Source: Roseomonas sp. OT10 (lineage in GTDB: Bacteria; Pseudomonadota; Alphaproteobacteria; Acetobacterales; Acetobacteraceae). From it: a stretch of 64,000 nucleotides of DNA. Positions 6,971 through 24,581 of the stretch are shown here, one piece after another. The DNA is taken from positions 1,632,001-1,696,000 of the forward strand of contig NZ_CP087719.1 in assembly GCF_020991085.1 (NCBI RefSeq). The letters are read 5' to 3'. Below the pieces are notes generated by a model, which did no database searches, was not told where the DNA came from, and was given only the letters and a program-made list of their open reading frames with translations. The translations under genes and the position numbers were made by a program. Numbering within the stretch: position 1 is the first letter of the stretch; each line of letters starts with the position of its first letter.

Positions 6971-8413
6971 ATGCAGCTTCGCTTCCACGACAGCGCCAGC
7001 CGGCGCAAGGTCGGGTTCACCCCGATCGACCCGCAGAACGTGCGGATCTATGTCTGCGGCCCGACCGTCTACGACCTCGCCCATCTCGGCAACGCGCGCC
7101 CGGTCGTCGTCTTCGACGTGCTGGCGCGGCTGCTGCGGCGGCTGTTCCCGCGCGTTACCTATGTCCGCAACATCACGGACGTGGACGACAAGATCAACGC
7201 GCGGAGCCGCGAGAGCGGCGAGCCGATCGGCGCGATCACCGCGCGCACCACGACCGATTTCCACGCGGACATGGCCGCCCTCGGCGCCCTGCCGCCCGAC
7301 CGGGAGCCGCGCGCGACCGAGACCATCGCCGAGATGGTCACGCTGATCGAGCGGCTGATCGCCTCCGGCCATGCCTATGCCGCCGAGGGGCACGTGCTGT
7401 TCAGCGTTCCCTCCTTCCCCGACTACGGGAAGCTCTCGGGCCGCGATCCGGAGGAGATGCTGGCCGGCGCCCGCGTCGAGGTCGCGCCCTACAAGCGCGA
7501 CCCCGGCGACTTCGTGCTGTGGAAGCCCTCCGAGCCCGACCTGCCCGGCTGGGACAGCCCCTGGGGCCGCGGCCGGCCGGGCTGGCACATCGAGTGCTCC
7601 GCCATGTCGTGGAAGTTCCTGGGCGAGAGCTTCGACATCCATGGCGGCGGGCACGATCTGCTCTTCCCGCACCACGAGAACGAGCTGGCCCAGAGCCTCT
7701 GCGCCTTCCCCGGCAGCCGCTTCGCGGCGCTGTGGATGCACAACGGCATGCTGCGCGTGGACGGCGAGAAGATGTCGAAGTCGCTCGGCAACTTCCGCAC
7801 CGTGCGCGACATCCTGGCGCACGGGGCCTGGGCGGGGGAGGCGTTCCGCCTGCTGCTGCTGCGCACGCACTACCGCTCCGAGCTCGACTACACGGAGGAG
7901 CGGCTGCACGACGCCAAGGCGGAGCTGGACGACCACTACGCCCTGCTCGCCCGGCTGCCGGAGGCCCCCGCGCCGGAGCCGGAACTGGCCGCGCGCCTCG
8001 CCGACTGGGCGCTGGAGCCGCTGGGCGACGACCTCAACACGCCGCTGGCCCTGGCCCGGCTGCGCGACCTGCGGGCGCTGGGCAATCTTGGCGCCGTCGG
8101 CGGCTCGGCCAGCGTGGTGCTGGGGCGGGTGGGGCTCGACGCCCTGCCGCAGCCGGCGACGGCCGCGGCGGCGCTGCGCGAGGCGGCCGGGGTGCTGGGG
8201 CTGCTGGGCAGCGATCCGGTGGCCTGGCGCCAAGGCGGGGCCGGCGGCGACGCGGCGGACGAGGCGGCGGAGATCGAGGCGGCCATCGCCGCGCGCCTCG
8301 CCGCCCGCAAGGCGCGGGACTGGGCGGAGGCCGACCGAATCCGCGACGGCCTCGCCGCGCGGGGCGTGGTGCTGGAGGACGGGCCGCAGGGCACCACCTG
8401 GCGCCGGGGGTGA
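6971..8413 (+). CDS. cysS: Cysteine--tRNA ligase
   Basis: A 480-residue class I synthetase. It shows the N-terminal zinc Cys and HIGH region ([17 protein letters not shown]), the second zinc-site segment [15 protein letters not shown] with [14 protein letters not shown], and KMSKSLGNF at about residue 260. Length and order match bacterial CysRS. It is separated from gltX by 6 bp, so cotranscription is likely; gltX-cysS pairing is seen in several bacteria. Confidence 0.97.
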
Positions 8414-8459
8414 ACCCGGCGCCGGTCTCGCCGTTCATCGCGCGGCGATGGAGGGTGGC

Positions 8460-9158
8460 ATGACGAAGGTGGCGCTGGTGACGGGGGCCGCGCATGGCAT
8501 CGGGCTGGGCATCGCCCGACGGCTGACCCGCGACGGCTGGCGGGTGGTGATCGCGGACCGCAAGGCACCGCCGGCCGATCTGGAGGCGCGGGCGGTGCCG
8601 GCGGACGTGGCCGACCCGCAGCAGGTCGCGGCCCTGGTCAGGGCCGTCGCGGAGACCGAGGGGCGGCTGGACGCGCTGGTCTGCAACGCCGGCTTCATGA
8701 TCCGCAAGCCGATCCGGGAGCTGACGCTCGCCGAGTGGAACGCGGTGCTGGCCACCAACCTGACCAGCACCTTCCTGCTGGCCCAGGCGGCGGAGCGGAT
8801 GCTGCGGGCGGCGCGGGGTGCCATCGTCACCATCGCCTCCACCCGCGCGCACCAGTCGGAGCCGGATACGGAGAGCTATGCCGCCAGCAAGGGCGGCCTC
8901 CTCGCGCTCACCCACGCGCTGGCGGTCAGCCTGGGGCCGGAGGTGCGGGCCAACGTGGTCAGCCCCGGCTGGATCGACGTGGCGGGGGAGGCGCTTCGCC
9001 CCGGGGACCATGCGCAGCACCCGGCGGGCCGGGTGGGGCGGGTGGAGGACATCGCCGCCCTGGTCGCCTGGCTGGTCGGTCCGGAGAGCGGCTTCGTCAC
9101 CGGCGCCGAATTCGTCAGCGACGGCGGCATGACCCGGAAGATGATCTACGCGGAATAG
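8460..9158 (+). CDS. Short-chain dehydrogenase/reductase
   Basis: A 232-residue classical [11 protein letters not shown] at the N-terminus for NAD(P) binding, VCNAGF for the NNAG-type motif, and SYAASKGG for the catalytic Tyr-x-x-x-Lys. ATG 8460 is chosen because GGAGGGTGG sits five bases upstream; an in-frame ATG at 8448 overlaps that Shine-Dalgarno. The gene begins 46 bp after cysS. The substrate is unknown. Confidence 0.85.
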
Positions 9159-9173: not shown

Positions 9174-10946
9174 TCAGGCCTCCCCGGTGGCAGGCTGCCG
9201 CAGCCCGGCGAGCAGGCGGTCGAGTTGCGCCGCATGGCGCTCCTCCGCGGGGCCATTCTCCGCCTCCGTGGGCGCCTCCGTGGGCGCCTCCGTGGGCCTC
9301 GGCTCGCCCGGGCCGCGCATGGCCGCCAGCAGCAGGTCGGCCCGGACACGGCGGCGGGCCTCCCGGCGCAGGGAGGTCTCCAGCGCCTCGATCGTGGTGC
9401 GCCGCTCCTCCGGGCGCAGGTCGCCGGCGGCGCGCCGGGCCGCCTGGGCCGCGCGCCAGCGGGCGAAGACCGCGTCCACCAGCACCTCGGGCACCGGAAA
9501 AGGCGCTGCCGCGAGCAAGGCATCCAGCCATGCGGTTCGCCGCATGGCCTGGGCCTCCGCGGTCGCCTCCGCCACCAGCCGCCGGGCGACCTCCGCACGC
9601 AGGGCGGCGAGGTCCGGCCATCCCAGCAGCCGGGCGAGGTCCGGCCCGGGTGGCATGGGCTGGCGGACCTGCCGCAGCTGCAGGGTCAGCCGGGCCTCCC
9701 GTCGGCCGGGCTCGCCGGCCCCGGATGGCAGGATCAGGTCATGGGTCAGGCGCTCGCCCGCACGCCGCCCGACCAGCCGCTCCGACAGGCCCGCCGGGAT
9801 GCCCGCCGGGATGTCTGCCGCTGCCGTGGGTCCCACCGGCACCAGCAACCCGTCAGGCCAGGGGGAGGGCAGGCTGTCGCCCTCTCGCGCACCGCGCGAC
9901 AGCCGCATGCCCCCGAGCCGCAGCGTATAGGCGGCGTCGACCTCCCCCGGCGGCCGCAGGCGCAGGAAGACTCGGACCCCCGTCGTGCCCGGGTGCCGCA
10001 CGACCAGTTCGGCGGCGAATCGTTGCGCCGCCAGCCGCCCCGGCCCAGGGAGAGGCAGGGGCGCGTCGTGCCGCTCCACCAGGGTCCCGGCCGCGTCCTG
10101 TTCTTCCAGAAGCGCGCTGGCGGAGGTCCCGGGGTGGATCTCGCCCGCCAGGAGGCGCCAGGCGCCCTCAAGAAGAAGGGTCTCGCCGGGAACCACGGCG
10201 ACGGCCCCGGGCCGGTCCAGCGCCAGTTGCGGCGTCTGCTTCGGGGTGACGCGGCCTTCGATGCGCAGGTCCAGGCAGGGAAGGCCGTCCTCCTCCCCGG
10301 TCCCCTCCACCCGGGCCAGCCGCTCCTTCTGCCAGACCAGGCTCCAGCGCGGCGGCATGCGGTTGAGGCCCGGGACGGCGCCGACGCCATCCGGATTCCC
10401 CAGGAGATTGGCGGAATCGAGGGCTCGCACCGACTCCACGGACAGCACGACGCGGTCCCCGGCGGCGGCAGGCACCGGAGGCGCGGCCACCTGCCAGGGG
10501 CCATGCCGCCCCGCGAGACGCCGCAGCTCCGCATCCAGCCGGACGGCGTCCACGCTGATGGGGGGAAGGTCCGGTGGGCACAAGCCGGACGGGTCGGGGA
10601 CGGCGATGTCAGGCAGGGCCTCGAAGGCGATGTGCATCCGGCGCCCCCCATCGGGGCCGGGGGGCAGGGGGTTGAGCTTCGGCGACTCGGCCGGCCGGAG
10701 GCGGCGGGCGCCGATCAACTGGCGCGCGGCCTCCAGCGCCAGGCTGCGGACCGCCGCATCCGTCACGCCGCGGCCGAAGCGCGGCCGCAGGCTCTCGGGG
10801 TCGGCGCCGGGCGCCAGCCGGTCGCGCAACTCGGCCAGACGTGTCCGGACGGCACCATCCAGCACCGTCCCGGGGATCTCGACGATCGCGGCGTGGCGCA
10901 GGCCACGCACGGGTAGGGGTTGGACCAGGACGGAGGCAGCCTGCAT
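9174..10946 (-). CDS. Trigger-factor-like protein with an inserted ~200-residue domain
   Basis: A 590-residue protein that follows trigger factor end to end. The N-terminal domain (about 1-110) has AAIVEIPGTVLDG and LRPAESPKL. Next comes the linker FEALPDIAVPDPSGL at about 130. A PPIase-like domain opens with GDRVVLSVES (about 190) and closes with LSERLVGRRAGERL and LTLQLRQVRQP (about 400-440). A helical C-terminal arm runs from DLARLLGWPDLAALRAEVARR to ARRRVRADLLLAAM. The PPIase domain is split by roughly 200 beta-rich residues with no motif I know. The ribosome-docking motif (GFRxGK type) is missing: the region reads ESLRPRFGRGV. It stands beside EPS genes, so it may be a dedicated chaperone for the EPS machinery rather than a ribosomal one (inference). 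The start codon is uncertain because no strong Shine-Dalgarno is seen. Confidence 0.62.
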   Translation of the reverse strand: MQAASVLVQPLPVRGLRHAAIVEIPGTVLDGAVRTRLAELRDRLAPGADPESLRPRFGRGVTDAAVRSLALEAARQLIGARRLRPAESPKLNPLPPGPDGGRRMHIAFEALPDIAVPDPSGLCPPDLPPISVDAVRLDAELRRLAGRHGPWQVAAPPVPAAAGDRVVLSVESVRALDSANLLGNPDGVGAVPGLNRMPPRWSLVWQKERLARVEGTGEEDGLPCLDLRIEGRVTPKQTPQLALDRPGAVAVVPGETLLLEGAWRLLAGEIHPGTSASALLEEQDAAGTLVERHDAPLPLPGPGRLAAQRFAAELVVRHPGTTGVRVFLRLRPPGEVDAAYTLRLGGMRLSRGAREGDSLPSPWPDGLLVPVGPTAAADIPAGIPAGLSERLVGRRAGERLTHDLILPSGAGEPGRREARLTLQLRQVRQPMPPGPDLARLLGWPDLAALRAEVARRLVAEATAEAQAMRRTAWLDALLAAAPFPVPEVLVDAVFARWRAAQAARRAAGDLRPEERRTTIEALETSLRREARRRVRADLLLAAMRGPGEPRPTEAPTEAPTEAENGPAEERHAAQLDRLLAGLRQPATGEA

Positions 10947-11714: not shown

Positions 11715-12449
11715 ATGCTCGACGCCCTGAACGATCTTGGCCGGCGTGCTTCCACGCCGACCCTCATGGAGCAGTCGGCAGGCTACGGCCTGCCAGCCGT
11801 CGCTCTCGATGCTGCGTCAAGCCCCGCGCACAGCGAATGGACGCAGGGCGTGAAGCGCGGCTTCGACGTGTCGCTGGCGATCGTGCTGCTCGTGATCCTG
11901 GCGCCCCTGATGCTGATCCTGGCCCTCGCCGTCCGCAAGGATGGCGGACCGGCCTTCTACGGCCACCGCCGGGTCGGGCGGGGGGGCGTCGAGTTCCCCT
12001 GCCTCAAGTTCCGCAGCATGGTCATCAACTCCGACCAGGTGTTGCAGGAGCTGCTGGCGCGCGACCCGGTGGCCGCCAAGGACTGGGCCACGAACCGCAA
12101 GCTGCGCCACGACCCCCGGGTGACCCGGATCGGCCGCTTCCTGCGGGCGACGAGCCTCGACGAGCTGCCGCAGATCATCAACGTGCTGCGCGGCGAGATG
12201 AGCTTCGTCGGTCCCCGGCCGGTCGTCACGGACGAGTTGCGCCGCCACTACGGCGCCGCCACGGCCCACTACATCGCCGTCCGCCCGGGCATCACGGGCC
12301 TCTGGCAGATCAGCGGCCGCAGCGACACCACCTATGTCGAGCGGGTGGAGTTGGACCAGCGCTACGTCCAGGAGTTCTCCATCCTCCAGGACCTGCGCAT
12401 CCTGCTGCGCACCGTCCCGGCCGTCCTGGCCCGGCGCGGCGCCTATTGA
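11715..12449 (+). CDS. Undecaprenyl-phosphate sugar-1-phosphate transferase (short GumD/AceA-like)
   Basis: A 244-residue bacterial sugar transferase predicted to start an EPS repeat unit by moving a hexose-1-phosphate from its UDP-sugar onto undecaprenyl phosphate. One membrane helix (about 38-60) precedes the catalytic core. The core carries LKFRSM, the signature DELPQIINVLRGEMSFVGPR, and PGITGLWQISGRS. It lacks the multi-helix N-terminal half of full GumD/WbaP proteins and is the catalytic-core-only form. ATG 11715 has GGAGG seven bases upstream. It leads EPS locus 1 and is followed after 61 bp by a glycosyltransferase. Confidence 0.9.
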   Translation: MLDALNDLGRRASTPTLMEQSAGYGLPAVALDAASSPAHSEWTQGVKRGFDVSLAIVLLVILAPLMLILALAVRKDGGPAFYGHRRVGRGGVEFPCLKFRSMVINSDQVLQELLARDPVAAKDWATNRKLRHDPRVTRIGRFLRATSLDELPQIINVLRGEMSFVGPRPVVTDELRRHYGAATAHYIAVRPGITGLWQISGRSDTTYVERVELDQRYVQEFSILQDLRILLRTVPAVLARRGAY

Positions 12450-12510: not shown

Positions 12511-14022
12511 ATGAATGTCCCACTGCACAACGGGGCTCCCGCCCCGGGGGCGGGCCTCCTGTCCGCCGGCGACACGGAACGCCTGCCGGTGCCGCTGGTC
12601 AGCGTGATCGTCGCCAACTGGAACGGCGAACGGTTCCTGGCCGGAACGCTCCACGCCATCCTCTCGCAGAGCGTGACGGCGATCGAGGTCATCGTCGCGG
12701 ACGACGCCTCCACCGATGGCAGCTGCGCCCTGGTCGAAGCCATCGCCGCCACCGATCCGCGCGTGCGGCTGTTGCGCGCCCCGGCCAATGGCGGCCCCGC
12801 GGCGGCGCGGAACCGGGCGCTGGACGCGGCGCGCGGGCGCTGGGCCGCCGTGGTGGACAGCGACGACCTGCTGCATCCCGAGCGGCTCCGCCGCCTGGTC
12901 GCGGCGGCGGAGGCGGCGGGCTCCGACATCGCGGCCGACGACCTGCTGATCTTCGACGATGGCGGAGTCGTCCCGCCCTCCCGCATGCTGCCGCCTGGCA
13001 GCCGCCAGACCTTCACCGTGGATGCAGCAGGCTGGATTCGCGCGAACACGCTGTTCGCCGGCGGGCCCATGCTGGGCTACCTCAAGCCCATCTTCCGGCG
13101 TGAGGCGCTGCAGCGCCATGGCGTGCGCTACGACGAGCGCCTGCGCATCGCCGAGGATTACGACTTCATCCTGCAGCTGCTGCTCGCCGGGGCGCGGTTC
13201 AGCGTCCATCCGGACCTGACCTATTTCTATCGCAAGCATGCGGCCTCGATCTCCCACCGCCTGTCCCTTCGCACCCTCTCGGCCATGGCCGCCGCGAATG
13301 ACGTGCCGCTGGCGGAAGGGGCGCCCGAGGTGGTGCGGGCCGCCCTGCGCCGGCGCGCCGGGAGCCTGTCCGATGCCCTGGCCTTCGAGCACCTCGTCGC
13401 CGCGCTGAAGGCGCGCCGGCCGCTGGAGGCGATGCGGCAGCTGCTGCACCGGCCCGGCGCGGCACGCCCCCTGGCCGGGGCAATGGGCGACCGGCTGCGT
13501 CGCCTGTCCCGCCGGCGCGGCGGACCCCAGGCCGCGACGGGGGAGGGGCAGGTGGCCCTGATCACCCGCCAGCCGCTGGAGGGCTGGGAGACGGAGTCCG
13601 GCCGACGGCTGCTGCGTCTCGTCAGCGCCCTGGCCGGGGCGGGCCTGGCGGTGGACCTGCTCTGCCCCGCCCCCGGCGCCCCGGCGACGCCGCAGGCCCC
13701 GCCCCCGGGCGTCCGCCGGCTGCTGCTGCGTGGGAACGGGATGCGGGACGCCGGGGCGGCGACGGACGCCGTGCCGGCGGATGACGCGGCAGCGCTCTTC
13801 GTCGCGCAGCACGCCCATGGCGCCGCCATCGTGCTGGCGGATGGGGAGGAGATGGCGGCGTTGCTGCCGTACTCTCTCCGTCCGGAGAAGGGGTGGGCGG
13901 TGCTGCGTGGCGCCGGGTTGCCCGGCGCGGCGTTGCCGGACTGGGCCGGTATGGTCTTCGACCTGCAAGACGGATCGGCGGCAGGCAGCCTGGTCGACTG
14001 GGCCGTCCGGCACGGCCGCTGA
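12511..14022 (+). CDS. Family 2 glycosyltransferase with C-terminal extension
   Basis: A 503-residue protein. Residues 25-250 form a GT-A/GT2 domain: VSVIVANWNGERFLAGTL, IVADDASTDGS, and VVDSDDL as the metal-binding DxD. It probably adds one sugar to the EPS lipid-linked repeat on the cytoplasmic face. Residues from about 340 onward (LITRQPLEGWETESGRRLLR to the end) form a second region of unknown function that resembles the start of a GT-B nucleotide fold but looks incomplete. It is in the same orientation as the sugar transferase and probably in its operon. Confidence 0.85.
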   Translation: MNVPLHNGAPAPGAGLLSAGDTERLPVPLVSVIVANWNGERFLAGTLHAILSQSVTAIEVIVADDASTDGSCALVEAIAATDPRVRLLRAPANGGPAAARNRALDAARGRWAAVVDSDDLLHPERLRRLVAAAEAAGSDIAADDLLIFDDGGVVPPSRMLPPGSRQTFTVDAAGWIRANTLFAGGPMLGYLKPIFRREALQRHGVRYDERLRIAEDYDFILQLLLAGARFSVHPDLTYFYRKHAASISHRLSLRTLSAMAAANDVPLAEGAPEVVRAALRRRAGSLSDALAFEHLVAALKARRPLEAMRQLLHRPGAARPLAGAMGDRLRRLSRRRGGPQAATGEGQVALITRQPLEGWETESGRRLLRLVSALAGAGLAVDLLCPAPGAPATPQAPPPGVRRLLLRGNGMRDAGAATDAVPADDAAALFVAQHAHGAAIVLADGEEMAALLPYSLRPEKGWAVLRGAGLPGAALPDWAGMVFDLQDGSAAGSLVDWAVRHGR

Positions 14023-14094
14023 CCGGCTGGCGAGGGGCCCGGGCCGGGCCGTTGCCAGCCCCCGGACCGACCCCCGGACGCCGGCCCGGTGGGA

Positions 14095-15396
14095 TCAGCG
14101 CGCCGTCTTGTCGGACTCGCCCGGGCCCGTGGGGAACCCTTCCGTGGCATCCGGCCGGGACACGTCCTGCGGTGCGCCGGCCGGACCTGCCGCCGCGGCC
14201 GGTGGCCGGCGGCCGCGCGCCAGCAGCATGAACAGGCGCTCCACGGTGACGTAGTAGAGGAAGCCGAGCAGCAGCGAGACGAGGATCAGCAGCACCGGCA
14301 GGCCGATCATCGTGGCCCAGCTGTCCGGCAACGGCACGATGCGGGACACCACCACGGCGGTGACGTGCATCGCCGGCACATGGACGAGGTAGACCGAGTA
14401 GCACATCGTCCCGATCAGGGCGATCGCCGGCACCGCCAGCAGCCGCCGCGCGATGCGCCCGCGCATCCCGCCATAATACACGGCCACGGCGCAGAGCATG
14501 GAGGCCACGATGCGCAGCGGATCATCCGGCAGGGTGGTGGCGCCGTGCCGCTCGAACACGCCGGTGAAGGCAAGCCCGGCCAGCCCCGCGACGAAGAGCG
14601 CGTCGAAGCGTAGGCCCGGCGTCGCCTGCAGCGGATCGTTCCGGCTGGTGGCATCGGCCACCAGGATGCCTGCCCAGAACAGGTGGAAGAACTTCAGCAG
14701 GGTCCAGCGGTAGCGCCCCCATTCGCCGAACACATGCGCTGCGGTGATCGCGGCCAGCATGGACAGGATCAGGACCGCGACGCCGAGGATGGCCCGGTCG
14801 CGCGGCTGCCGGATACGCAGGTACAACCAGACCAGCAGCGGGCTGATCAGGTAGAACTGCATCTCGATCTCGAGCGACCAGGTCGGCGGGTTGAGCCGCG
14901 GCGGTGCGTTGAACAGGATCCCGTGGATGTAGAGCACGCTGGCCGCGAAGCTCTGACCCAGCGACGCATCCTGCCCCTGGAAGCTGGGCGCGTTGGGCAC
15001 CTGGCCGGCCGAGGACAGCAGGACGAAGCAACCGGCCATGACGATCAGGTAGGGCGGCACGATCCGGATCAGGCGGCGCTGGTAGAAATCGGGGGTGGAC
15101 GGCCAGGCGCCGCGCTGCGCGCCCTTGATGAAGGGCTGGGCGATGATGAAGCCGCTGATGAAGAAGAACAGCGCGACCCCGACCTCGCCATGGGGTACCC
15201 AGCCGAGGATGCTTTCGCCCAGGCTGCCGGTGCTGCCGTCGGAGAACCGCGTGGCGCGCAGGGTGCTGTGCCAGACCAGCACGGAGGCGATGGCGAGGAA
15301 GCGGAGGCCGTCGATCTGCGCGATGTAGCGGGTGCTGGCCACCGGGCGGCCGAACCGCGCCGGGATGGCAGCAAGGCTTCGCAGCAGGCTTGTCAT
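14095..15396 (-). CDS. Acyltransferase family 3 membrane protein
   Basis: A 433-residue integral membrane protein of the OafA/ExoZ type with about ten hydrophobic segments. It starts with IAQIDGLRFLAIASVLVWHS, carries the conserved His of the first helix, and has FYQRRLIRIVPPYL, the family's Arg-rich R-x-x-R-I-x-P motif. Such proteins move acetyl or succinyl groups onto EPS or O-antigen sugars across the membrane. ATG 15396 has AGGAG upstream. The Pro/Gly-rich C-terminus (about the last 40 residues) is cytoplasmic. It converges with the preceding GT2 gene. Confidence 0.9.
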   Translation of the reverse strand: MTSLLRSLAAIPARFGRPVASTRYIAQIDGLRFLAIASVLVWHSTLRATRFSDGSTGSLGESILGWVPHGEVGVALFFFISGFIIAQPFIKGAQRGAWPSTPDFYQRRLIRIVPPYLIVMAGCFVLLSSAGQVPNAPSFQGQDASLGQSFAASVLYIHGILFNAPPRLNPPTWSLEIEMQFYLISPLLVWLYLRIRQPRDRAILGVAVLILSMLAAITAAHVFGEWGRYRWTLLKFFHLFWAGILVADATSRNDPLQATPGLRFDALFVAGLAGLAFTGVFERHGATTLPDDPLRIVASMLCAVAVYYGGMRGRIARRLLAVPAIALIGTMCYSVYLVHVPAMHVTAVVVSRIVPLPDSWATMIGLPVLLILVSLLLGFLYYVTVERLFMLLARGRRPPAAAAGPAGAPQDVSRPDATEGFPTGPGESDKTAR

Positions 15397-15753
15397 GATC
15401 GGCTCCTGCCTTGGTTCTGCGATCCCGCGAGGGCCGCGGCCGCTTCCGTCACGGCACGCGGCATTCCGCTGGAAGACCGCAAGCTTGCGCCTCTCATCGG
15501 CATCGGCTCCGGGGGGACGTCGCTGCGTCCGGATCGACTGTCGTCCCGTTCGCCGTGGCGCCGGGCTTGCCCTGGCCTGTCTCGGTCCCGGAGACGGGAA
15601 CCGGCTCTGCCGGGAATTCCTGACCCTGTCGCGAAGATTGCCGCATCCGTCCGGCGAAGGACAGGGAAATATCGCTGACCCATCCGTTGGCAGCCATGCC
15701 GGAAGCCAGGATCGCGTTGCCCCGGCGCGACGCCCCCTGCCATGCCGGGCGCG
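15397..15753. other. 357-bp intergenic region
   Basis: Lies between the SGNH-like gene and the acyltransferase on the same strand. It holds the AGGAG Shine-Dalgarno of the acyltransferase near 15404-15408. I see no other gene, terminator with a U-tract, or clear promoter in it. The frames that cross it are low-complexity and have no start signals. Confidence 0.5.
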
Positions 15754-16806
15754 TCATCCCAGGCGGGGGCGGCAGCTTCCCTGCGCCACCATGGCGCCCG
15801 GCGTCGCGCGCGCGTCGCCGAGGCTGTGGCCGACACGCTCGGACATCTTCGCGGCACCCATCATGTTCATGTGGTGGAAGTCGCTCCAATTCTGCGGATC
15901 GGCAAGGATGTCCTGCGCGCTGATGAGCGGGCCGAGCCCCTGGTACCAGCTCATGTCGTAGGGTTCGGCATTCTGTCCGTAGGAAGGCAGGTAGAGCAGC
16001 CGCACGGGCACGCCCTTCTCCTTCGCCAGCGTCAGGATCTCCGTCAGGTAGCGTCGCGGCATCGCGAACTCGAAGTCGCGCAGCGCAGGGCCCAGCATCG
16101 AGAGGTTCTTGTTGGCGCGCACGATGGCCGCCTCGCGCTCCAGCGCGTCGCGGTCGGCGATGCGGTCGCGCAGGGGGGTGAAGGCGACGCCGCCGACGGC
16201 GACCTGGCGCGTGTTGTCCGGGTTGGGGCCGTCGTAGTGCTTCGGATCGAACTCGCGCCGCAATCCGTACTGCTCCGGGAAGAGCGTCTTCCAGGCCAGC
16301 ATGATCTGGCGCAGCGGCAGCTTCGAGAGGTCGGAGAAGTACTTCAGGTTGATGAGCATCGGTGCCTCGAGCACGTCGCTCACCTCTGCGATGTAGGCGA
16401 AGGCGGGGTGGGGCAGGCGGGTCTCGTTCTCGAACACCTCCAGCACCAGCGTGCCGACCCGCCGGTTCTCCAGCAGCTCCCGCACGATGAGCCAGTGCAG
16501 GTTGCGGCCATAGGACGGGATGGCGAGGTTCGTCACGTTCAGGCATCGCCCGCTGCCATCGGCGATGCTGCGCTCCACCGCCTGCGGGTCGATGCCGTTC
16601 AGCGTCCGCGAGGTGCCCACGAAGGCCACGTCGATCGGCGTGTCGTCGAAGTGGATCCGCTCGTAGAGCCAGCCCAGCCGGGCGAAGGATTCCACCCGGA
16701 CGTCCTGGAAGCGGATGTAGCGGTCGTGCGGCAGGAACAGGCTTCCCACCAGGACGGCCAGGGCGCAGGCCAGGCCGATCCCGATCAGGCGCAGGGCGGA
16801 TCGCAT
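15754..16806 (-). CDS. SGNH/AlgX-like membrane-anchored partner of the MBOAT acyltransferase
   Basis: A 350-residue protein with one N-terminal membrane helix (about residues 5-24) and an extracytoplasmic domain. FVGTSRTLNG near residue 65 fits the SGNH Gly-x-Ser nucleophile block, and WSDFHHMN near residue 320 fits the late Asp-x-x-His block. It starts 16 bp after the MBOAT stop, with GAGG before ATG 16806. The MBOAT plus SGNH-protein pairing is the AlgI/AlgJ-AlgX logic of polysaccharide O-acetylation: the MBOAT brings the acyl group across the membrane and the SGNH protein places it on the polymer. The exact family is not certain, since sequence similarity to AlgX is only seen at motif level. 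Confidence 0.65.
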   Translation of the reverse strand: MRSALRLIGIGLACALAVLVGSLFLPHDRYIRFQDVRVESFARLGWLYERIHFDDTPIDVAFVGTSRTLNGIDPQAVERSIADGSGRCLNVTNLAIPSYGRNLHWLIVRELLENRRVGTLVLEVFENETRLPHPAFAYIAEVSDVLEAPMLINLKYFSDLSKLPLRQIMLAWKTLFPEQYGLRREFDPKHYDGPNPDNTRQVAVGGVAFTPLRDRIADRDALEREAAIVRANKNLSMLGPALRDFEFAMPRRYLTEILTLAKEKGVPVRLLYLPSYGQNAEPYDMSWYQGLGPLISAQDILADPQNWSDFHHMNMMGAAKMSERVGHSLGDARATPGAMVAQGSCRPRLG

Positions 16807-16822
16807 CGCCTCGTTTCCCCGC

Positions 16823-18346
16823 TCAGAAGTTGAAGTACAGGAAGATGCCCGGGTCGGGCAGGCGGGCGAAGCAGATCCCGGCCAGCACACCCAGCGCGGC
16901 CGCGGCCAGGGCGGCGTTGCGGGCGAAGACCGGCCGCGCCTCGACGGGCCGGTGGGCCGTGGTGTGCGGGCCGACCGGGCGGCTGTCCGTGGCCTCGCCG
17001 GGATGGGACGGGCCGGCCGCGCCCTCGAAGGCCTCGGGGTAGCGGACCATCTGCAGCACGTTCGGCAGCAGGAAGGCGATGGCGGCGGCGCCGGCCACCA
17101 CGATCCAGCCGAAGGCGGGGCCGGGGATACCGGTCACGGCCGTCCCGGGGACCAGCCCGACCATGGCCGCCAGCATGCCGAGCGCCGAGCCGACCGAGGG
17201 GGCGCGGAAGAAGACCCAGCCGACCACGACGGCGAGGAAGGTGAGGGCCCAGGCGAAGAGGGCGAAGGCGGGGGAGCGGATCTCGCCGACCGTGGCGCGC
17301 CAGAGGTGGTTCACGATCAGGTAGAGCCCATGCAGCACGCCCCAGATGACGAAGGTCCAGGCGGCGCCATGCCAGAGGCCGCCGATCGCCATGGTCGCCA
17401 GCAGGTTCACGTAGCGCCGGTGCTTGCCCTTCCGGTTGCCGCCCAGCGGAACGTAGACGTAGTTGCGCAGGAAGGCGGAGAGGGTGATGTGCCAGCGCCG
17501 CCAGAACTCGATGATGCTGCCGGAGCGGTAGGGCGAGAAGAAGTTCACCGGGAAGCGGATGCCGAAGAGCAGGCCCAGCCCCACGGCCATGTCCGAGTAG
17601 CCGGAGAAGTCGAAATAGAGCTGGAACGTATAGGCCAGCGCGCCCAGCCAGGCATCGGCGACGGTGGGCGCATGGCCGGCCAGCGCCGCGGTGAAGACGG
17701 GGTCGGCGTAGGTGGCCAGGGTGTCCGCCACCAGCACCTTCTTGGTCAGCCCCAGGATCAGCACCGCGAGCCCTGCCAGCACCCAGGAATGCGGCAGCGG
17801 GCCGCGGCCGGCGGCGGCGAACTGCGGCAGCATCTCCTTGTGGTGGGTGATGGGGCCCGCGATCAGGTGCGGGAAGAACAGGATGAAGAGCATGTAGTCC
17901 AGCAGGGTGCCGGCCGGGTGGTCGCCCTTCCGGATCTCCACGATGTAGGCGATCTGCTGGAAGGTGAAGAAGCTGATGGCCAGCGGCAGGATCACCGCGC
18001 GGAAGCCGAATTCCCAGCCGAACACCGCCTCGAGGTTGCCCAGGAAGAAGCCGGCGTACTTGTAGTAGCCGAGCAGGCCCAGGTTGAAGATCAGCCCGAC
18101 CAGCAGCACCGGTCCACGCCGCGGAACGGGCAGGCGGTGCATGAACGCGCCGATGGCGTAGTTGGCCAGGATCGAGCCGAGGACGAGGAAGACGTACTTC
18201 CAGTCCCACCAGCCGTAGAAGAACAGCGAGGCGCAGACGAGGAAGACCTTCGCCGGCAGCTGCCAGCCACGCACGCGGCAGGTGTGATAGACGAGCAGGC
18301 AGACCGGCAGGAACGCCAGGAGGAACTCGAAGGAGCCGAACAGCAT
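16823..18346 (-). CDS. MBOAT-family O-acyltransferase (AlgI-like)
   Basis: A 507-residue membrane protein of the AlgI/DltB type. Typical segments are ASLFFYGWWDWKYVFL, LPLAISFFTFQQIAYIVE, FFPHLIAGPI, FSGYSDMAVGLGLLFG and FWRRWHITLSAFLRNYVYVP. The catalytic His is in GGLWHGAAWTF. The length fits AlgI. About 90 C-terminal residues (Pro/His-rich, then a last helix) extend beyond the core. ATG 18346 is the first Met of the conserved N-terminus. It is probably cotranscribed with the downstream SGNH-like gene and supplies acyl groups for EPS decoration. Confidence 0.92.
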   Translation of the reverse strand: MLFGSFEFLLAFLPVCLLVYHTCRVRGWQLPAKVFLVCASLFFYGWWDWKYVFLVLGSILANYAIGAFMHRLPVPRRGPVLLVGLIFNLGLLGYYKYAGFFLGNLEAVFGWEFGFRAVILPLAISFFTFQQIAYIVEIRKGDHPAGTLLDYMLFILFFPHLIAGPITHHKEMLPQFAAAGRGPLPHSWVLAGLAVLILGLTKKVLVADTLATYADPVFTAALAGHAPTVADAWLGALAYTFQLYFDFSGYSDMAVGLGLLFGIRFPVNFFSPYRSGSIIEFWRRWHITLSAFLRNYVYVPLGGNRKGKHRRYVNLLATMAIGGLWHGAAWTFVIWGVLHGLYLIVNHLWRATVGEIRSPAFALFAWALTFLAVVVGWVFFRAPSVGSALGMLAAMVGLVPGTAVTGIPGPAFGWIVVAGAAAIAFLLPNVLQMVRYPEAFEGAAGPSHPGEATDSRPVGPHTTAHRPVEARPVFARNAALAAAALGVLAGICFARLPDPGIFLYFNF

Positions 18347-18410
18347 TCGGGAACCGGTCTCCCAGCAGGGACGGACGCCTCTTCCCCGGGGTCTGATTTT
18401 GCTGGCACGA

Positions 18411-18428
18411 GGCATCCGTGCGGATGCC
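18411..18428. other. Perfect 7-bp hairpin between glycanase and MBOAT genes
   Basis: GGCATCC and GGATGCC flank a 4-base loop, within the 214-bp gap between the GH16 gene end and the MBOAT start. No T-run follows on either strand, so it is not a standard intrinsic terminator. It could be an attenuator or an mRNA end-protecting stem. Confidence 0.35.
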
Positions 18429-18560
18429 TGCCCAGGTCGTGCTGCGCCGCCCTTCTTCTAGCCAGCCGCCCGGTCCCTGCCAACCCTCATTGTGCTTTGC
18501 AGCATAAGGCGTCGCAGGCCGGATCGGGGCGCCCGGAGGGGGCGCCCCGCGGCCGGGCGG

Positions 18561-21500
18561 TCAGGCGAAGTCCATGAGCCACTTGCCCGAGCCGGAGGCG
18601 GCGACCCCGTCCAGCACCACGCTCCCCCCGGACCAGGAGAGCAGCGCGCCGGTGGCGGTGTCGCTGATGTGCAGCCCGGCCTTGGTGATCCCCTCGAAGC
18701 GCAGCCGGTCGACCCCCGCCACGAAATCGGTGATGTGGTCCTGCCCCGCCTCGCCGCTGCGGAAGACGAAGGTGTCCGACCCTGCGCCGCCGGTCAGCAC
18801 GTCGTTCCCCGCGCCGCCGGCCAGCCTGTCCGCCCCGGCGCCGCCGATGACGGTGTCCGCCCCCGATCCGGCCTCCACCAGCAGCTTTTGGGTCCCGGTG
18901 GCGGCGCCTTCGATCCGGTCGTTGCCCGCCCCGGTGGAGAGGGTGAAGACCGTCGTGTCGCCGGCGCGCCAGACCTTCGGATCGGTGATGGTGATGGTGT
19001 CGTTGCCCCCGCCGGTCTGGACGGTGCCGCCCTGGGTGCGGGTGAGGGCGACCTGGCTGGCGGAGGAGCCGCCCAGCACCACGTCCACCTGGGTCAGGTC
19101 GATCAGGTCGTAGCGGCCGCCATCGGCATCCCGGACGCGGATGTTGAGGCCCGTCCAGGCATTGCTGACATCGGCCGAGTAGCTGTCCCCGGCGCGGTCG
19201 TTGACGACCTTCAGCTCGACGAAGCTCTTGAGGCTGGCGAAGCCCAGGTCGCTGCCCTTGAAGGTCATCGTCCCGCCGGCCTCCGCCACGTAGTGGAAGC
19301 TGTCGGCCGCGGCGGCGCTGCCATCGGCGGCCAGCTTGCCCATGCTGAAGGTGACGTCCGGCGCGGCCTTCGCGGTGGCCTCCCTCGCGGCGGCCACGTC
19401 GGCAAGCTGATAGGCGCGGACATAGTCCACCTGCATGTCGCCCAGCAGGTCCCCCGACTTCTCCGGCACCTGGGTGACGCCGCCGGCCCAGTTGCCGCCC
19501 ATCGCCACGTTCAGGATCATGTACATCGGCGTGTGCTGGTTATGGTCGTAGACGACATGGGTCATCTTGCCGTCGACGAACCAGGCCAGCCGCTCCGCCG
19601 TCCATTCCAGGCCGTAGGTGTGCCACTCCGTGGTGTCGAGATGGACCTGGTTGCCCATCTGCCAGACCTCGCCCGGGGCGCGTCCGAGCTGCTCCATCAC
19701 GTCGATCTCGGGCGGCCAGGTGTTGTCGCTGGGCAGCAGCCAGAAGGCGGGGAAGAGGCCGTCCCCCGCGCTCATCTTGATGCGGGCCTCGAAATACCCG
19801 TACTGCTGGGAGAAGCTGCCCGCGGTGGTCAGCACCCCGGAGGTGTATTCCCGGCCCTCCATCTGGGACTTCAGCTCCGGATGGTATTCCGCCCGCAGGC
19901 TGACCGCCCCGTCCGCCACGGTGATGGGCTGGACCCCGAAGGTGCCGGGATCGACGTAGTACTGGAGGTCGCTGTAGGCGTTGTAGTTGCCCGAGCCGGG
20001 GTTCATCCGCGTCCGCCAGGTGCCGCCGTCGTCGTGCTTGCCGTCGAAGCGAGAGAAGGTGTCGAACTCGTCCCCGAAGACGAGCCGGTACTTGGAGGCA
20101 TCCAGGCTGAGCTCGAAGTCCCGCGCGCCGAGCTCGGCCACCTTGCGGCCGGTGAGGGTCAGCGTGTCGTCCCCGAAGGAGAGCTGCGCGCCCTGGGCCG
20201 TGTCGCGCAGCAGCGGCCGCAGTGCCTCCCATGTCAGCGCGCCGTCCAGGATCCGGATGCGGTCCACGCCCGGCGCGAAATCCGTCACCGTGTCATGGCC
20301 ATAGCCCTTGCCGAAGACGAAGGTGTCGCTGCCGGCGCCGCCGGTCAGCAGGTCGTTGTTGCCCATGCCGTCGAGGCGGTTGTCCCCCTCGCTGCCGATC
20401 AGCACGTTCGCCAGCTCGTTGCCCTGGGCCGAGGTGCCGCCGATCGAGCCCAGCCGCTTCAGGTGGTCGCCGTAGATCGGCCGGTTGCCGCCGGTCAGCT
20501 GGATGTTCTCGACATTGTCCACGGCCAGGGCGGTGCCGCTGCCGTAGTAGGTGATGGTGTCGATGCCCTCGCCGGGCTTCTCCACCACCTTCGAGCCGTC
20601 CCCGGCATAGTAGTTGTCGTCGCCCTTGCCGCCGGCCAGCGTGTCGTTCCCCTTCGGCGCCAGCACGTCGTGCCCGTCCGTGCCGGTCACGAGGTTCGCC
20701 CTCGGGTCCTGGTCCGTGATCCACTTGCCGGCCTTGACGCCCAGCGTGGGGGTGCCGGGATCGGCCGAGGCGGGCAGGGTCAGCGGGGCGGCGTTGATGA
20801 CGCCGGGAAGGGTGGTCCCGGCCGGCACGGGCTCCGCCGGCTTCACCGCCGGGGGGAAGAGCTGCTCCAGGCTGCGCAGCGTGCCGTCGCCGAAGCGCAG
20901 GTACTCCACCCCGGTCATGGCGATGCCGATATCGCGCCGCCCGGCGATCTCGATCGTCACCACGCCCTCCGCCGAGCGCGAGAGCGTCAGAGCGGACTGG
21001 ACGAAGGCGAGCTGCAGCGTGTCGGTGCCCGCCCCGCCCTCGATGGCATAGAAGCCGTCCAGCGCGACGGACAGGGTGTCGTCGCCCGCCCCCGCGTCGA
21101 TCATGGCGGCGCGGGCACCGCCGATGGTGAGGCGGTCGTTGCCCGCGCCGAGGCTGATCGCGGCCTCGGTCCAGCGCAGGGTGCCGGCGAAGAAGACGGT
21201 GTCGTTGCCTGCGCCGGCATCGATCACGAAGCCATTCCCCGCCCCGCCGGCATTGGAGAGGGCGCGGACCGTGATGACGTCGTCGCCCGCGCCGCTCTGC
21301 ACGATGCCGCGCTTGGCGCCCTCGACGGTGAAGGTGTCGGCACCGGCGCCGCCCAGCAGATCCACCTGCACCACGTCCCGCACCGTCAGCGGAGCGCCGG
21401 ATTCGCTGTGCACCGCCACGTTGCGCCAGGCCCAGGCCGTGGGCGCCTGGATCACCTGGCCAGCCGCGCCCAGGCCCTTGGCGGTCGGGGAGGTCAGCGC

Positions 21501-21638
21501 CAAGCTGCGGCCCGGTACGGCGGCGATGGGGGCAACCGGTTCCGCGGTCGGATCGCCCCAGGCCCCGTAGGCGGCCACGCCGTCCTTCAACCCGCGCGCC
21601 AACGAGACCGGGAGTGCTCCGAGGGTGACGTTCTGCAT
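18561..21638 (-). CDS. Secreted RTX-repeat GH16 glycanase
   Basis: A 1025-residue protein without a Sec signal. It is built from RTX calcium-binding repeats (several GGAGADTF, GAGNDR and GGAGNDVLTGGAGSDTF blocks) at about 70-480 and again at the C-terminus (about 900-985), which suggests type I secretion. Between them, from about 510 to 760, is a glycoside hydrolase family 16 domain with the catalytic EIDVME motif near residue 642 (two Glu and the helper Asp). A further beta-rich, probably carbohydrate-binding region lies at about 770-870. The closest functional analogue is rhizobial ExsH, which shortens succinoglycan. ATG 21638 is chosen because MQNVTLGALPVSLARG opens the non-repetitive N-terminus. 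No type I secretion genes are visible in the window. Confidence 0.9.
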   Translation of the reverse strand: MQNVTLGALPVSLARGLKDGVAAYGAWGDPTAEPVAPIAAVPGRSLALTSPTAKGLGAAGQVIQAPTAWAWRNVAVHSESGAPLTVRDVVQVDLLGGAGADTFTVEGAKRGIVQSGAGDDVITVRALSNAGGAGNGFVIDAGAGNDTVFFAGTLRWTEAAISLGAGNDRLTIGGARAAMIDAGAGDDTLSVALDGFYAIEGGAGTDTLQLAFVQSALTLSRSAEGVVTIEIAGRRDIGIAMTGVEYLRFGDGTLRSLEQLFPPAVKPAEPVPAGTTLPGVINAAPLTLPASADPGTPTLGVKAGKWITDQDPRANLVTGTDGHDVLAPKGNDTLAGGKGDDNYYAGDGSKVVEKPGEGIDTITYYGSGTALAVDNVENIQLTGGNRPIYGDHLKRLGSIGGTSAQGNELANVLIGSEGDNRLDGMGNNDLLTGGAGSDTFVFGKGYGHDTVTDFAPGVDRIRILDGALTWEALRPLLRDTAQGAQLSFGDDTLTLTGRKVAELGARDFELSLDASKYRLVFGDEFDTFSRFDGKHDDGGTWRTRMNPGSGNYNAYSDLQYYVDPGTFGVQPITVADGAVSLRAEYHPELKSQMEGREYTSGVLTTAGSFSQQYGYFEARIKMSAGDGLFPAFWLLPSDNTWPPEIDVMEQLGRAPGEVWQMGNQVHLDTTEWHTYGLEWTAERLAWFVDGKMTHVVYDHNQHTPMYMILNVAMGGNWAGGVTQVPEKSGDLLGDMQVDYVRAYQLADVAAAREATAKAAPDVTFSMGKLAADGSAAAADSFHYVAEAGGTMTFKGSDLGFASLKSFVELKVVNDRAGDSYSADVSNAWTGLNIRVRDADGGRYDLIDLTQVDVVLGGSSASQVALTRTQGGTVQTGGGNDTITITDPKVWRAGDTTVFTLSTGAGNDRIEGAATGTQKLLVEAGSGADTVIGGAGADRLAGGAGNDVLTGGAGSDTFVFRSGEAGQDHITDFVAGVDRLRFEGITKAGLHISDTATGALLSWSGGSVVLDGVAASGSGKWLMDFA

Positions 21639-21766
21639 GAGCCGTGTTCCGTTTCGTGGGATGACGTACAAATAATGCGACGAACTGATGAAGAGGTTCT
21701 TGACGGCGCGGCAGCGGGCCGGCCGGCGGAACGGCGGTGGCAGCGAGCAAGCGGGGAGCGGTCGCG

Positions 21767-22918
21767 ATGAGGGTCGCCTACCTCGTGCATGACCTCGGCG
21801 ACGCGGCGGTGGAGCGGCGGCTACGCCAGCTGCGGTCCGCGGGCTTCGATCTGGCCCTGGCCGGATTCCACCGCGCGGAAACGCCGCCGTCCGAGGTGGC
21901 CGGGGTTCCGGCCGTGCCGATGGGAAGGACCGAGAACGCCCGGCTGGTCCGGCGGATCGGCAGCGTGCTGGGCGCGGCGGCACGGCCCGGCGCCTGGGTC
22001 GAGGCGGTGCGCGGCGCCGACATCATCCTGGCGCGGCAGCTCGAGATGCTGGCGCTGGGCGCGCGCGGTCGCGCCGTGGCGGCGCGCTCGGCGTCGCTGG
22101 TCTACGAATGCCTGGATATCCATCGGCTGATGCTGTCCCAGGGCCCGCCTGGGCGGGCCCTGCGCGCGCTGGAAGGGGCGTTGCTGCGCCGGACGGACCT
22201 GCTGCTCGTCAGCTCCCCGGCCTTCGTCGAGAACCACTTCGCCCGCGCCTATCCCCGGCTGCCCCCGACGGAGCTGGTCGAGAACCGCGTGCTGGAGGAG
22301 GAGCTGTCACCCGAGGTCCTGGCCGGGCCGCCGCCCCCACCCGTGGCCGGCCCGCCCTGGCGAATCGGCTGGTTCGGCATGCTGCGCTGCCGACGGAGCC
22401 TGGAGCTCCTGGCGGGGTTGACCCGGGCCCTGCCGGGGCAGGTGGAGGTGGTCCTGCGGGGCCGCCCGGCCCTGGATGCGCTCGGCGACCTGGAGGGGGT
22501 GCTGGCCTCCGCCCCGGGGATGCGGTTCGACGGGCCCTACGACCGCCGGCGCGACCTAGCCGGCATGTATGCGGGGGTGCATTTCACCTGGGCGATCGAC
22601 TTCTACGAGGCTGGGGCGAATTCCGACTGGCTGCTGCCCAACCGCCTCTATGAGGGCGGGGCGCACGGTGCGGTGCCGCTGGCGATGCGGAACGTGGAGA
22701 CGGGGCGCTGGCTGGCGCGCCACGGCGCCGGCATCCGGCTGGAGGAGCCGCTGGGCGAGGCGCTGCGCGACCTCTTCGCCGGGATGACGGCGGAGCAATG
22801 GGGCGAGGCAAGACGGGCCGCGGCAGCGGTGCCGCGAGCCGCCTATGTGGACGGCCCCGAGGCTGCCGCGAGGCTGGCCGAGGCGCTGTCCGCCTCGGTA
22901 TCGCGTGACTCGTTCTGA
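21767..22918 (+). CDS. ExoL-like GT-B glycosyltransferase
   Basis: A 383-residue protein starting MRVAYLVHDLGDAAVERRLR, the type of N-terminus seen in succinoglycan glycosyltransferase ExoL. The C-terminal half has WRIGWFGMLRCRRSLELL and a late NRLYEGGAHGAVPLA segment equivalent to the donor-binding EGxxxG region of GT-B enzymes. It probably adds one sugar of the EPS repeat in the cytoplasm. ATG 21767 is preceded by GGGGAG. It lies divergent from the GH16 glycanase, with 128 bp between the start codons. Confidence 0.82.
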   Translation: MRVAYLVHDLGDAAVERRLRQLRSAGFDLALAGFHRAETPPSEVAGVPAVPMGRTENARLVRRIGSVLGAAARPGAWVEAVRGADIILARQLEMLALGARGRAVAARSASLVYECLDIHRLMLSQGPPGRALRALEGALLRRTDLLLVSSPAFVENHFARAYPRLPPTELVENRVLEEELSPEVLAGPPPPPVAGPPWRIGWFGMLRCRRSLELLAGLTRALPGQVEVVLRGRPALDALGDLEGVLASAPGMRFDGPYDRRRDLAGMYAGVHFTWAIDFYEAGANSDWLLPNRLYEGGAHGAVPLAMRNVETGRWLARHGAGIRLEEPLGEALRDLFAGMTAEQWGEARRAAAAVPRAAYVDGPEAAARLAEALSASVSRDSF

Positions 22919-22975
22919 CAAATGAAATACTTTTGAGCGCCGGAGGGGTTACGTCTGGCGAGAACCCTCATGCTA

Positions 22976-23004
22976 GCATTACGTTAAGGGAATTGTCGTA
23001 ATGC
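22976..23004. promoter_or_regulatory. Perfect 8-bp inverted repeat upstream of the small membrane protein
   Basis: GCATTACG (22976-22983) and CGTAATGC (22997-23004) are separated by 13 bases in an AT-rich patch, 55 bases before ATG 23060. This could be a dimeric regulator's operator or an mRNA hairpin. No known consensus is recognised. Confidence 0.4.
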
Positions 23005-23059
23005 AACCAGGGAGCCAGCCGTTCCGCTGAAGGCTCCCGGCAGGGGTAGGAGGCTAGAC

Positions 23060-23278
23060 ATGGTCCCGCAGCATGCATCCGCCCATGGCGCAGCCGCGAA
23101 CCCGCACCCGATGCGCGTGACCTTCGGCCTTCCGGCGAGAGGAGCGGGGCAGATCCTTACCGAGGAGGGACAGCCTTCCTCCCGGATGCCAGTCCCCTTC
23201 CGTGGCATCCTCGTCGGGCTGCTCCTGTCGTCCATCCTGTGGATCGCGATTGTTTTCGGAATATATTCCTATATCTGA
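23060..23278 (+). CDS. Small single-pass membrane protein of the EPS locus
   Basis: 72 residues. The first 47 are soluble and low in motifs. Residues 49-72 form a hydrophobic helix (GILVGLLLSSILWIAIVFG) ending in YSYI, so the protein is tail-anchored. ATG 23060 has a good Shine-Dalgarno (TAGGAGG, about eight bases upstream) and sits after an AT-rich leader with an inverted repeat, which supports real expression. No family recognised. Its place between two EPS glycosyltransferases suggests an accessory role in EPS assembly (inference). Confidence 0.6.
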   Translation: MVPQHASAHGAAANPHPMRVTFGLPARGAGQILTEEGQPSSRMPVPFRGILVGLLLSSILWIAIVFGIYSYI

Positions 23279-23444
23279 AGCGCTGAACCCATTGCCGAGC
23301 ATCGGTGCCGGGATGCCCCGGGCCGGATCATTGCTGCGCCGCCGTAACCGCATTTGACGCTGACCCGGTAGCCTCGGCATACCCCCTAGCGCGCCGCGAT
23401 GGTTGTCGTGACCCTGACCGCGGCTGCCGCAGCGGAGCCGCCTC

Positions 23445-24476
23445 ATGCCCGACGCCGCCGTTCAAGCCTCCAGCGCGGAGGGGGAGGTCCCCTTCGTCTC
23501 CGTCGCCGTCCCTGTGCTGAACGAGTCCCACTACATCCAGCCCTGCCTCGAATCCCTGCGCGGCCAGTGGCCGGAGGGGCGGTTCGAGGTGCTCGTGCTG
23601 GATGGCGGCAGCCGCGACGACACGCGGGAGAAGGTGGAGGCCATGATGCCGGGCTTTCCCGGCCTGCGCCTGCTCGACAACCCGCGGCGCCTGCAGTCGG
23701 CGGCCGTCAACCTCGCTGCCCGCCTGGCCACGCCCGAAGCGGGCATCCTGGTCCGGGCGGACGCGCACGCCGTCTATCCGCCCGACTTCCTGGTGAAGGT
23801 GGTGGGCGCCCTGCGCAGCCAGCGCGGTGCGACCTCCGTGGTGGTGCCCATGGTCACGGAAGGCCGAATCGGCTTGCAGCGGGCGATCGCCGCCGCCCAG
23901 AACAGCCGCTTCGGCAATGGCGGCTCGGCGCACCGGCGGCTCGGCCAATCGCGGTGGGTGGATCACGGCCACCATGCCGCCTTCGACCGGGCGTTCTTCC
24001 TGTCCATCGGCGGCTACGACGAGACCTTCACCCATAACGAGGATGCCGAGCTCGACCAGCGCGCCACGGCGGCGGGGGGCAAGGTCTGGATGTGCGCCGA
24101 AGCGGCGGTGACCTATTTCCCGCGCCGGGACCTCGTCAGCCTGGGGCGGCAATACAGCCGGCACGGTGCCGGCCGGGCCCGGACCATCCTCAAGCACCGG
24201 CTGAAGCCGAAGCCCCGCCAGATGGCGCCGGTTGTGGCGCTTCTGGGAAATTCCGCCGCCTTGGTTGCGGCGCCGGTCGTGCCCGCAACCCTTCTGGTGC
24301 CGGCGGTCTATGCGCTGCTGTGCCTGGGATGGGGGGCCCGTTCCGCCCTGCGCGAGCGCGATGCCTGGCTCCTGGCGGCAGGGCCGGCGGCGATGACGAT
24401 GCACCATGCCTGGGCCGTGGGCTTCCTGCGTTCCCTGATGCGGCGGCGGAACCGACAGGTTGCCACCAGCCCCTGA
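23445..24476 (+). CDS. ExoA-like family 2 glycosyltransferase
   Basis: A 343-residue GT2 enzyme resembling succinoglycan beta-glucosyltransferase ExoA. It opens with VSVAVPVLNESHYIQPCLES and has LDGGSRDDT, the VRADAH metal-binding motif, and WVDHGHHAAFDR, with the HNEDAELDQR catalytic block near residue 200. Two C-terminal hydrophobic helices (about 265-305) anchor it to the inner membrane, as in ExoA. ATG 23445 follows a GGAG eight bases upstream. It works with the ExoL-like enzyme on the same lipid-linked repeat (inference from context). Confidence 0.88.
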   Translation: MPDAAVQASSAEGEVPFVSVAVPVLNESHYIQPCLESLRGQWPEGRFEVLVLDGGSRDDTREKVEAMMPGFPGLRLLDNPRRLQSAAVNLAARLATPEAGILVRADAHAVYPPDFLVKVVGALRSQRGATSVVVPMVTEGRIGLQRAIAAAQNSRFGNGGSAHRRLGQSRWVDHGHHAAFDRAFFLSIGGYDETFTHNEDAELDQRATAAGGKVWMCAEAAVTYFPRRDLVSLGRQYSRHGAGRARTILKHRLKPKPRQMAPVVALLGNSAALVAAPVVPATLLVPAVYALLCLGWGARSALRERDAWLLAAGPAAMTMHHAWAVGFLRSLMRRRNRQVATSP

Positions 24477-24519
24477 CCGGGCGATCACCAGCCCGTGTAT
24501 GCTGCACTGCAAAATCACT

Positions 24520-24547: not shown

Positions 24548-24581
24548 CGCGTGAACTGGCCGCGCGGCCTGTGTCCAAAAT

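Follow-up and report, generated by a model that had tools for sequence, protein, structure and literature searches.

While examining a 64,000-nucleotide stretch of the genome of Roseomonas sp. OT10 (contig NZ_CP087719.1, positions 1,632,001 to 1,696,000; hereinafter, the window), we found that a gene on the complementary strand at positions 9174..10946 encodes a 590-residue paralog of trigger factor (TF) in which an additional, beta-rich module is lodged within the peptidyl-prolyl isomerase (PPIase) domain. At the ribosome exit, TF is the principal chaperone of bacteria, and its organization into three domains is regarded as invariable. From comparison of sequences, it is apparent that the module is kin to a part of a phage tail protein, that it also occurs in the sole TFs of relatives of this bacterium, that its presence changed repeatedly among them and that the copy in the window has, in addition, sustained several losses.

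The assignment to the TF family follows from profile and homolog searches. The Pfam Trigger_C profile matched the window protein with 47.1 bits (E 3.6e-12, above the cut-off of 22.7), over profile positions 2-103 of 162; the Trigger_N match was weak (16.1 bits, below the cut-off of 22.2) and the TIGR00115 'tig' score was 83.1 bits, below the equivalog cut-off of 180.2. The AlphaFold2 model consists of TF-like N- and C-terminal parts and a beta-rich insert at approximately residues 181-352, with the predicted local distance difference test score between 84 and 94 in 14 of the 17 ten-residue blocks from 181 to 350 (82, 75 and 70 in the remaining three). Among the Foldseek matches of the whole model, the six best were trigger factors (1w26, E 6e-12); CBM22, CBM16 and phage tailspike chains came next. 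Chance resemblance to TF is ruled out by the Trigger_C, TIGR00115 and Foldseek matches, and the kinship at both ends that had been proposed in a sequence-only reading, made without database searches, is thereby upheld.

The protein shares with E. coli TF (Tig; 1w26) the order of N domain, linker, PPIase domain and C domain. On the complementary strand throughout, a diverged N-terminal domain (residues 1-125; 10572..10946) without the GFRxGxxP ribosome motif is followed by the first FKBP/PPIase strand (residues 160-180 by alignment, modelled strand 165-175; 10407..10469), the insert (residues ~181-352; 9891..10406), the remainder of the PPIase domain (residues 353-430; 9657..9890) and the C-terminal chaperone domain (residues ~435-545; 9312..9644), the final part of which is missing. 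Compared with Tig, the window copy thus carries an insert of ~170 residues and lacks the GFRxGxxP motif, the PPIase aromatics and the C-terminal end. The sequence-only reading had correctly described a PPIase domain split by a beta-rich segment, although one of about 200 residues, and had noted the absence of the ribosome-docking motif, which a scan of the whole window protein did not detect anywhere. The three aromatic PPIase positions are L/A/L in the window protein compared with F/Y/F in all four inserted sole TFs checked, and no rotamase or PpiC-type Pfam match was obtained at E up to 10. The start codon is uncertain: there is an ATG at 10946, but most homologs align from residue 8.

In the genome (5.69 Mb, 3 contigs), Trigger_N was matched once and Trigger_C twice, by the window gene and by a canonical tig at 1160098, the second copy that the earlier reading had proposed to look for. 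The canonical gene encodes 450 amino acids and is followed by clpP, clpX, lon and, two genes later, nuo; here and below, the names of these genes, of cysS, of the amino acid transporter and of the tail-type gene sets come from reading the sequence by eye rather than from a family search. Within the IPGF motif of its PPIase site, the canonical TF (L192, 5099-6451) has Val at the position taken by Phe in the four inserted sole TFs with which it was compared.

The insert is predicted to fold as a CBM4/22/16 carbohydrate-binding module (CBM), a beta-sandwich of ~170 residues that splits a PPIase hairpin. The identity to the CBM4, CBM22, CBM16 and phage tailspike structures (2y6j, 4xuo, 2zey, 8iqe, 5w6h) is only 10-16%. 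By sequence, no CBM match was detected when 23 members were compared with Pfam at E up to 1, nor when PDB sequences were searched at E up to 10. In this lack of a Pfam match and in its apparently cytosolic setting, the insert differs from CBM modules, and sugar binding is putative. Mapped on a sole TF (L111), the site lies between E. coli TF residues 172 and 175, in the first PPIase hairpin; in homologs aligned to canonical tig, the extra stretch likewise occurs at a single place, following the first PPIase strand, and occupies 142-177 residues over the insert columns in the larger set of inserted TFs.

By sequence, the insert is related to a module of a phage tail protein. An insert profile matched residues 250-432 of gp49 of Azospirillum phage Cd with 90.2 bits over profile positions 9-186 of 193, and hhalign gave a probability of 98.7. 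The E-value of the gp49 profile match is a single-target value, and independent support comes from matches in family genomes and from a tblastn search of 50,697 phage records (E 2e-3). In gp49, a 915-aa protein, the module is one part of a tail protein, whereas in TF it sits inside a chaperone; several residues conserved in 18 aligned phage and other copies of the module are missing from the TF inserts, as judged from the alignment alone, a comparison that gives no firm indication about sugar binding. In the insert tree, which has only a midpoint root, the non-TF copies form one group (support 95) nested among the TF inserts, and therefore transfer may have proceeded either from phage to TF or from TF to phage. 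A plasmid search with the insert of the G127 genome returned four Azospirillum plasmid records (E 7e-3); with the window protein, a plasmid search found none, and a search of genome contigs with this protein alone yielded no confirmed match. Phylum-wide, the only one of 398 genomes found to carry the insert was that of the window itself, with at most 8 candidates scored per genome, which makes the apparent absence outside the family weak evidence.

The same module is also found in other genes. G127, a genome that holds a TF paralog as well, encodes a tail-type protein with this module (L190, 6523-8589). A recurring chromosomal set (L191, L232, L233 in part, L237, L238, L241, L242, L243, L244 and L245) comprises proteins of 215-219, 740-819, 379-425 (with the CBM-type module) and 123-131 aa, and often adjoins ABC transporter genes of apparent polyamine type; in the L237 set, a pectate-lyase-like Pfam match was obtained for the large protein. 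Judged by eye, the whole resembles a tail-spike or gene-transfer-agent set that stands on its own.

Family samples were drawn from a larger group, 299 genomes for the search with the window protein and 397 for a later search with 8 candidates scored per genome. The search of the 299 genomes, followed by gene calling in 22 neighborhoods fetched from 20 relatives, identified 22 homologs, one protein of 592-812 aa per locus in all 22, which rules out a private oddity of the window gene. In 15 of the 20 genomes with a full-length homolog (among them G268, 89% complete), the inserted protein is the only TF, that is, the only Trigger_C protein; G104, G160 and G028 have two TFs each, both inserted, and G127 and G152 each combine a short TF with an inserted one. 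By eye, nine of the 22 loci are tig-clpP-clpX-lon, seven lie beside a branched-chain amino acid transporter and six are neither. In G697 and G691, from the window's genus, the inserted TF occupies the clpPX locus, where the window genome has the short form, and in the genus coded g102 the main TF is inserted in all six genomes of the family search and in every tree row that belongs to this clade. The GFRxGxxP motif is present in 94 of 96 main TFs, the other two being cut by contig ends. The layout had been considered, in the sequence-only reading, as a possible foldase variant for exopolysaccharide (EPS) export, an idea to which a sole tig at a clpPX-type locus was to be the counterexample. 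Such genes do exist for the layout, although the window paralog is neither sole nor so located, and an EPS-specific layout is ruled out by the sole TFs and the clpP-clpX-lon loci.

The history of the insert among the main TFs was examined in a core tree of 103 TFs from which the insert columns were left out; the sample leans to inserted TFs, having been drawn by likeness to one inserted TF. The presence of the insert is scattered, with closely placed forms that have and lack it (G691 and G696; G697 and G693; P. aestuarii and P. rhizosphaerae; a metagenome-assembled Belnapia genome and Paeniroseomonas). For the 96 non-paralog rows, 49 of them inserted, parsimony requires at least 11 state changes, compared with a mean of 32 and a minimum of 25 in 500 label shuffles, and a scenario with one gain requires 18 losses; either gain or loss may have predominated. 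Of six with/without pairs, two align with a clean in-frame gap (435 and 531 nt) between flanks that are 89-93% identical, and the other four less cleanly. At the insert site, short TFs have a turn of 5 residues in all six outgroups measured (one outgroup was not measured) and a loop of 7-19 residues in 34 of 39 cases inside the clade; the longer loops resemble scars or, alternatively, a widened landing site.

The insert appears to change faster than the core. Its identity is below that of the core in 19 of 19 pairs, with a ratio of nonsynonymous to synonymous substitution rates (dN/dS) of 0.08-0.51 in 13 pairs and 0.82-1.26 in six, compared with 0.05-0.24 for the core in all 19; these pairs lack independence, and insert and core differ in dS as well. 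In the extreme case, the TF cores of Roseomonas E05 and P. coralli are 95.5% identical and the inserts 31%. Because the insert tree groups these two at 100 and, for the main TFs, broadly follows host groups, fast change appears, on sequence grounds, a likelier explanation than an unrestricted exchange of insert alleles among TFs, which is nonetheless conceivable. Perhaps the insert is, throughout the family, a neutral passenger that was acquired a single time, has since been lost repeatedly and plays no part in folding. The lower identity in every pair, the six high dN/dS values, the repeated state changes and the longer loops of in-clade short TFs would all fit a passenger; the low dN/dS of the other 13 pairs and the retention of the insert throughout g102, albeit in a sample that favors inserted TFs, speak against it, and we consider this explanation possible but doubtful.

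Ten fast-evolving paralogs (the window copy and those of G127, G028, G152, G160, G104, G743, G741, G095 and G756) form one clade, nested within the Neoroseomonas TFs of the core tree, with 100/98 support; an eleventh (G707) is cut by a contig end and was left out of that tree. The window copy pairs with that of G756 at 100/99, with 37% identity over 359 core columns, and the insert tree pairs the two as well, at 100; in a first tree, which lacked the G756 copy, the window copy grouped with G152. The longest paralog branches were flagged by the tree program, so long-branch misplacement is possible. The GFRxGxxP motif is absent anywhere in seven paralogs, the window copy included, and kept in three (G160, G104, G743), and none of the ten keeps all three PPIase aromatics. 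The three genomes in which the extra TF also retains the motif (L047 for G104, L230 for G743, L039 for G160) belong to the Neoroseomonas group. In a published survey, several ribosome-motif TFs in one genome are recorded for 23 of 390 multi-TF genomes (PMC11559001).

In the window, the paralog has a convergent neighbor 15 bp away, a short-chain dehydrogenase gene (8448..9158, forward strand), which is preceded by cysS (6971..8413, forward), a conserved edge. On the other side, the divergent first gene of an EPS locus encodes a bacterial sugar transferase (Bac_transf by Pfam; 11850..12449, forward) and is followed by genes for glycosyltransferases, Acyl_transf_3 and MBOAT acyltransferases, Wzz/GNVR-AAA and Poly_export proteins, some without a Pfam match (12511..28888, no single strand assigned), in agreement with the placement at the edge of an EPS locus in the sequence-only reading. 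Within this locus, 7.6 kb from the paralog, lies a gene for a likely secreted GH16 protein with RTX repeats (18561..21638, complementary). Downstream of cysS, three relatives have other genes, with no dehydrogenase, paralog or EPS genes (a fourth contig ended too soon), and nothing close to the EPS glycosyltransferase of the window is present in the remaining 14 genomes of the genus (best, 50% over 103 of 503 residues); therefore, the paralog lies at the edge of an accessory region. The window also contains a second polysaccharide block (39684-55935) with a UDP-sugar dehydrogenase, Polysacc_synt_2, Wzy_C and another Poly_export protein, and short ORFs that read, by eye, like a broken IS5-type transposase (57152-57918, complementary).

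At the ten paralog loci, Hint/RTX genes are found in three cases, sulfotransferase or glycosyltransferase genes in three and none of these in three, and the accessory EPS region is confined to the window. A Hint_2+RTX gene, the sole Hint_2 match of that genome, lies 37 bp upstream of the G756 paralog; two such genes, out of three matches in the genome, are upstream in G741, and a Hint_2 gene, one of four matches, in G152. A sulfotransferase gene is located 4 bp upstream in G104, with a 97% identical counterpart, also at 4 bp, in G743. In G127, a co-directional glycosyltransferase gene lies downstream, and a divergently transcribed gene matches sulfotransferase below the threshold.

The explanation that we favor, with about even confidence, is that the window protein is a TF duplicate freed from the ribosome that has been retained as a holdase acting on surface or secreted products. 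It would have arisen by duplication and divergence in a lineage whose TF bears the CBM-fold module in the PPIase beta-hairpin. The window copy, apparently off the ribosome and devoid of prolyl isomerase activity, would act in the cytosol, with the C-terminal domain and the beta-sandwich as the client-binding surface, much as the insert-in-flap domain serves SlyD. The clients would probably be products of neighboring surface-layer genes, namely, Hint/RTX proteins or EPS and glycan enzymes; the window copy might serve the GH16-RTX protein or EPS enzymes. The sole TFs would be ordinary ribosome-bound TFs but for the insert, an extra domain. Several observations weigh against this explanation. The root-mean-square deviation of the whole model from TF structures is at least 11 A and its predicted template modelling score is 0.42, and therefore the domain arrangement is tentative. 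The insert tree splits the paralogs into window/G756/G127 (88) and G152/G741/G095/G707 beside Siccirubricoccus inserts (99), with G028 elsewhere and G160/G104/G743 among Neoroseomonas, so that a single origin of all ten is not certain. The paralogs of G095, G160 and G028 have, by eye, no Hint/RTX or glycan genes next door, and neighbors vary between paralogs, so there is no single shared client; linkage to clients is weakest in the window, where there is no co-directional neighbor. Finally, none of the other 14 genomes of the genus has an ortholog of the window paralog, and the very long branches (1.66 for the window copy) would fit decay too.

A decaying, functionless duplicate, its frame held open by high G+C, would indeed account for this branch, for the combined loss of the docking motif, the PPIase aromatics and the C-terminal end, for the presence of the window paralog in only one of 15 genomes of the genus and for a coding score that is low among the genes of the window (166 for 579 codons). 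Decay is, however, rendered unlikely by the uninterrupted frame with the insert kept by ten paralogs in several genera, by the identity and joint grouping of the window and G756 copies, by the high confidence with which the window insert is modelled and by the recurrence of the Hint/RTX linkage. EPS loci of other bacteria carry a dedicated PpiC-type isomerase (EpsD), and a comparable role for the window protein, as a dedicated foldase for EPS synthesis or export, had been proposed from the sequence alone; the module would then touch glycan or an EPS enzyme. The adjoining EPS locus, the absence of both paralog and EPS genes after cysS in three relatives, which suggests that they may have arrived together, the carbohydrate-binding type of fold and the glycosyltransferase gene of G127 are compatible with this possible, not demonstrated, role. 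We nevertheless consider it improbable: unlike EpsD, the protein has no rotamase or PpiC match, no export signal is seen by eye, the paralog shares no operon with EPS genes, the neighborhood survey placed no other paralog locus in an EPS locus and the layout is general in sole TFs. Least probable of all, we believe, is a glycan-responsive chaperone, in which a module still able to bind glycan would make the sole TFs ribosome-bound helpers with a phage-type sugar receptor and the paralogs free chaperones coupling surface-protein folding to synthesis of the cell's own sugar coat.

The holding-chaperone explanation finds parallels in known systems. The window insert differs from that of SlyD in being located in another loop, the first hairpin, in being a CBM-type beta-sandwich and in residing inside a TF. 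It resembles the inserts of SlyD/SlpA insert-in-flap FKBPs and engineered FKBP12 chimeras (PMC11013033, PMC5034536) in being a second domain within an FKBP domain and a possible client binder; insertion of a chaperone domain into FKBP12 is reported to raise its folding activity (PMC11013033). In the survey of TF duplicates, extra copies mostly lack the ribosome motif, which is tied to dosage constraint, and, as in Myxococcus xanthus, one complete TF remains, as it does here; those duplicates are shorter, mainly through loss of the N domain, whereas the window copy keeps the N-domain fold and has its PPIase domain split by another domain (PMC11559001). By analogy with these duplicates and chimeras (PMC11559001, PMC11013033), an off-ribosome holdase is a reasonable, albeit unproven, proposition. 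As the sequence-only reading had surmised, no described protein of this layout turned up in the open-licence literature, among titles and abstract openings concerning TFs with inserted domains, CBM, Acetobacteraceae, Roseomonas and paralogs.

In this group of bacteria, the plan of TF is broken open by a domain whose other carriers, as far as found, are tail-type phage proteins and gene sets resembling them. TFs that are orthologous, occupy the same locus and differ by the insert between sister species are natural with/without pairs for probing the purpose of the PPIase domain, and the paralogs illustrate how a TF duplicate may turn to other clients once off the ribosome.
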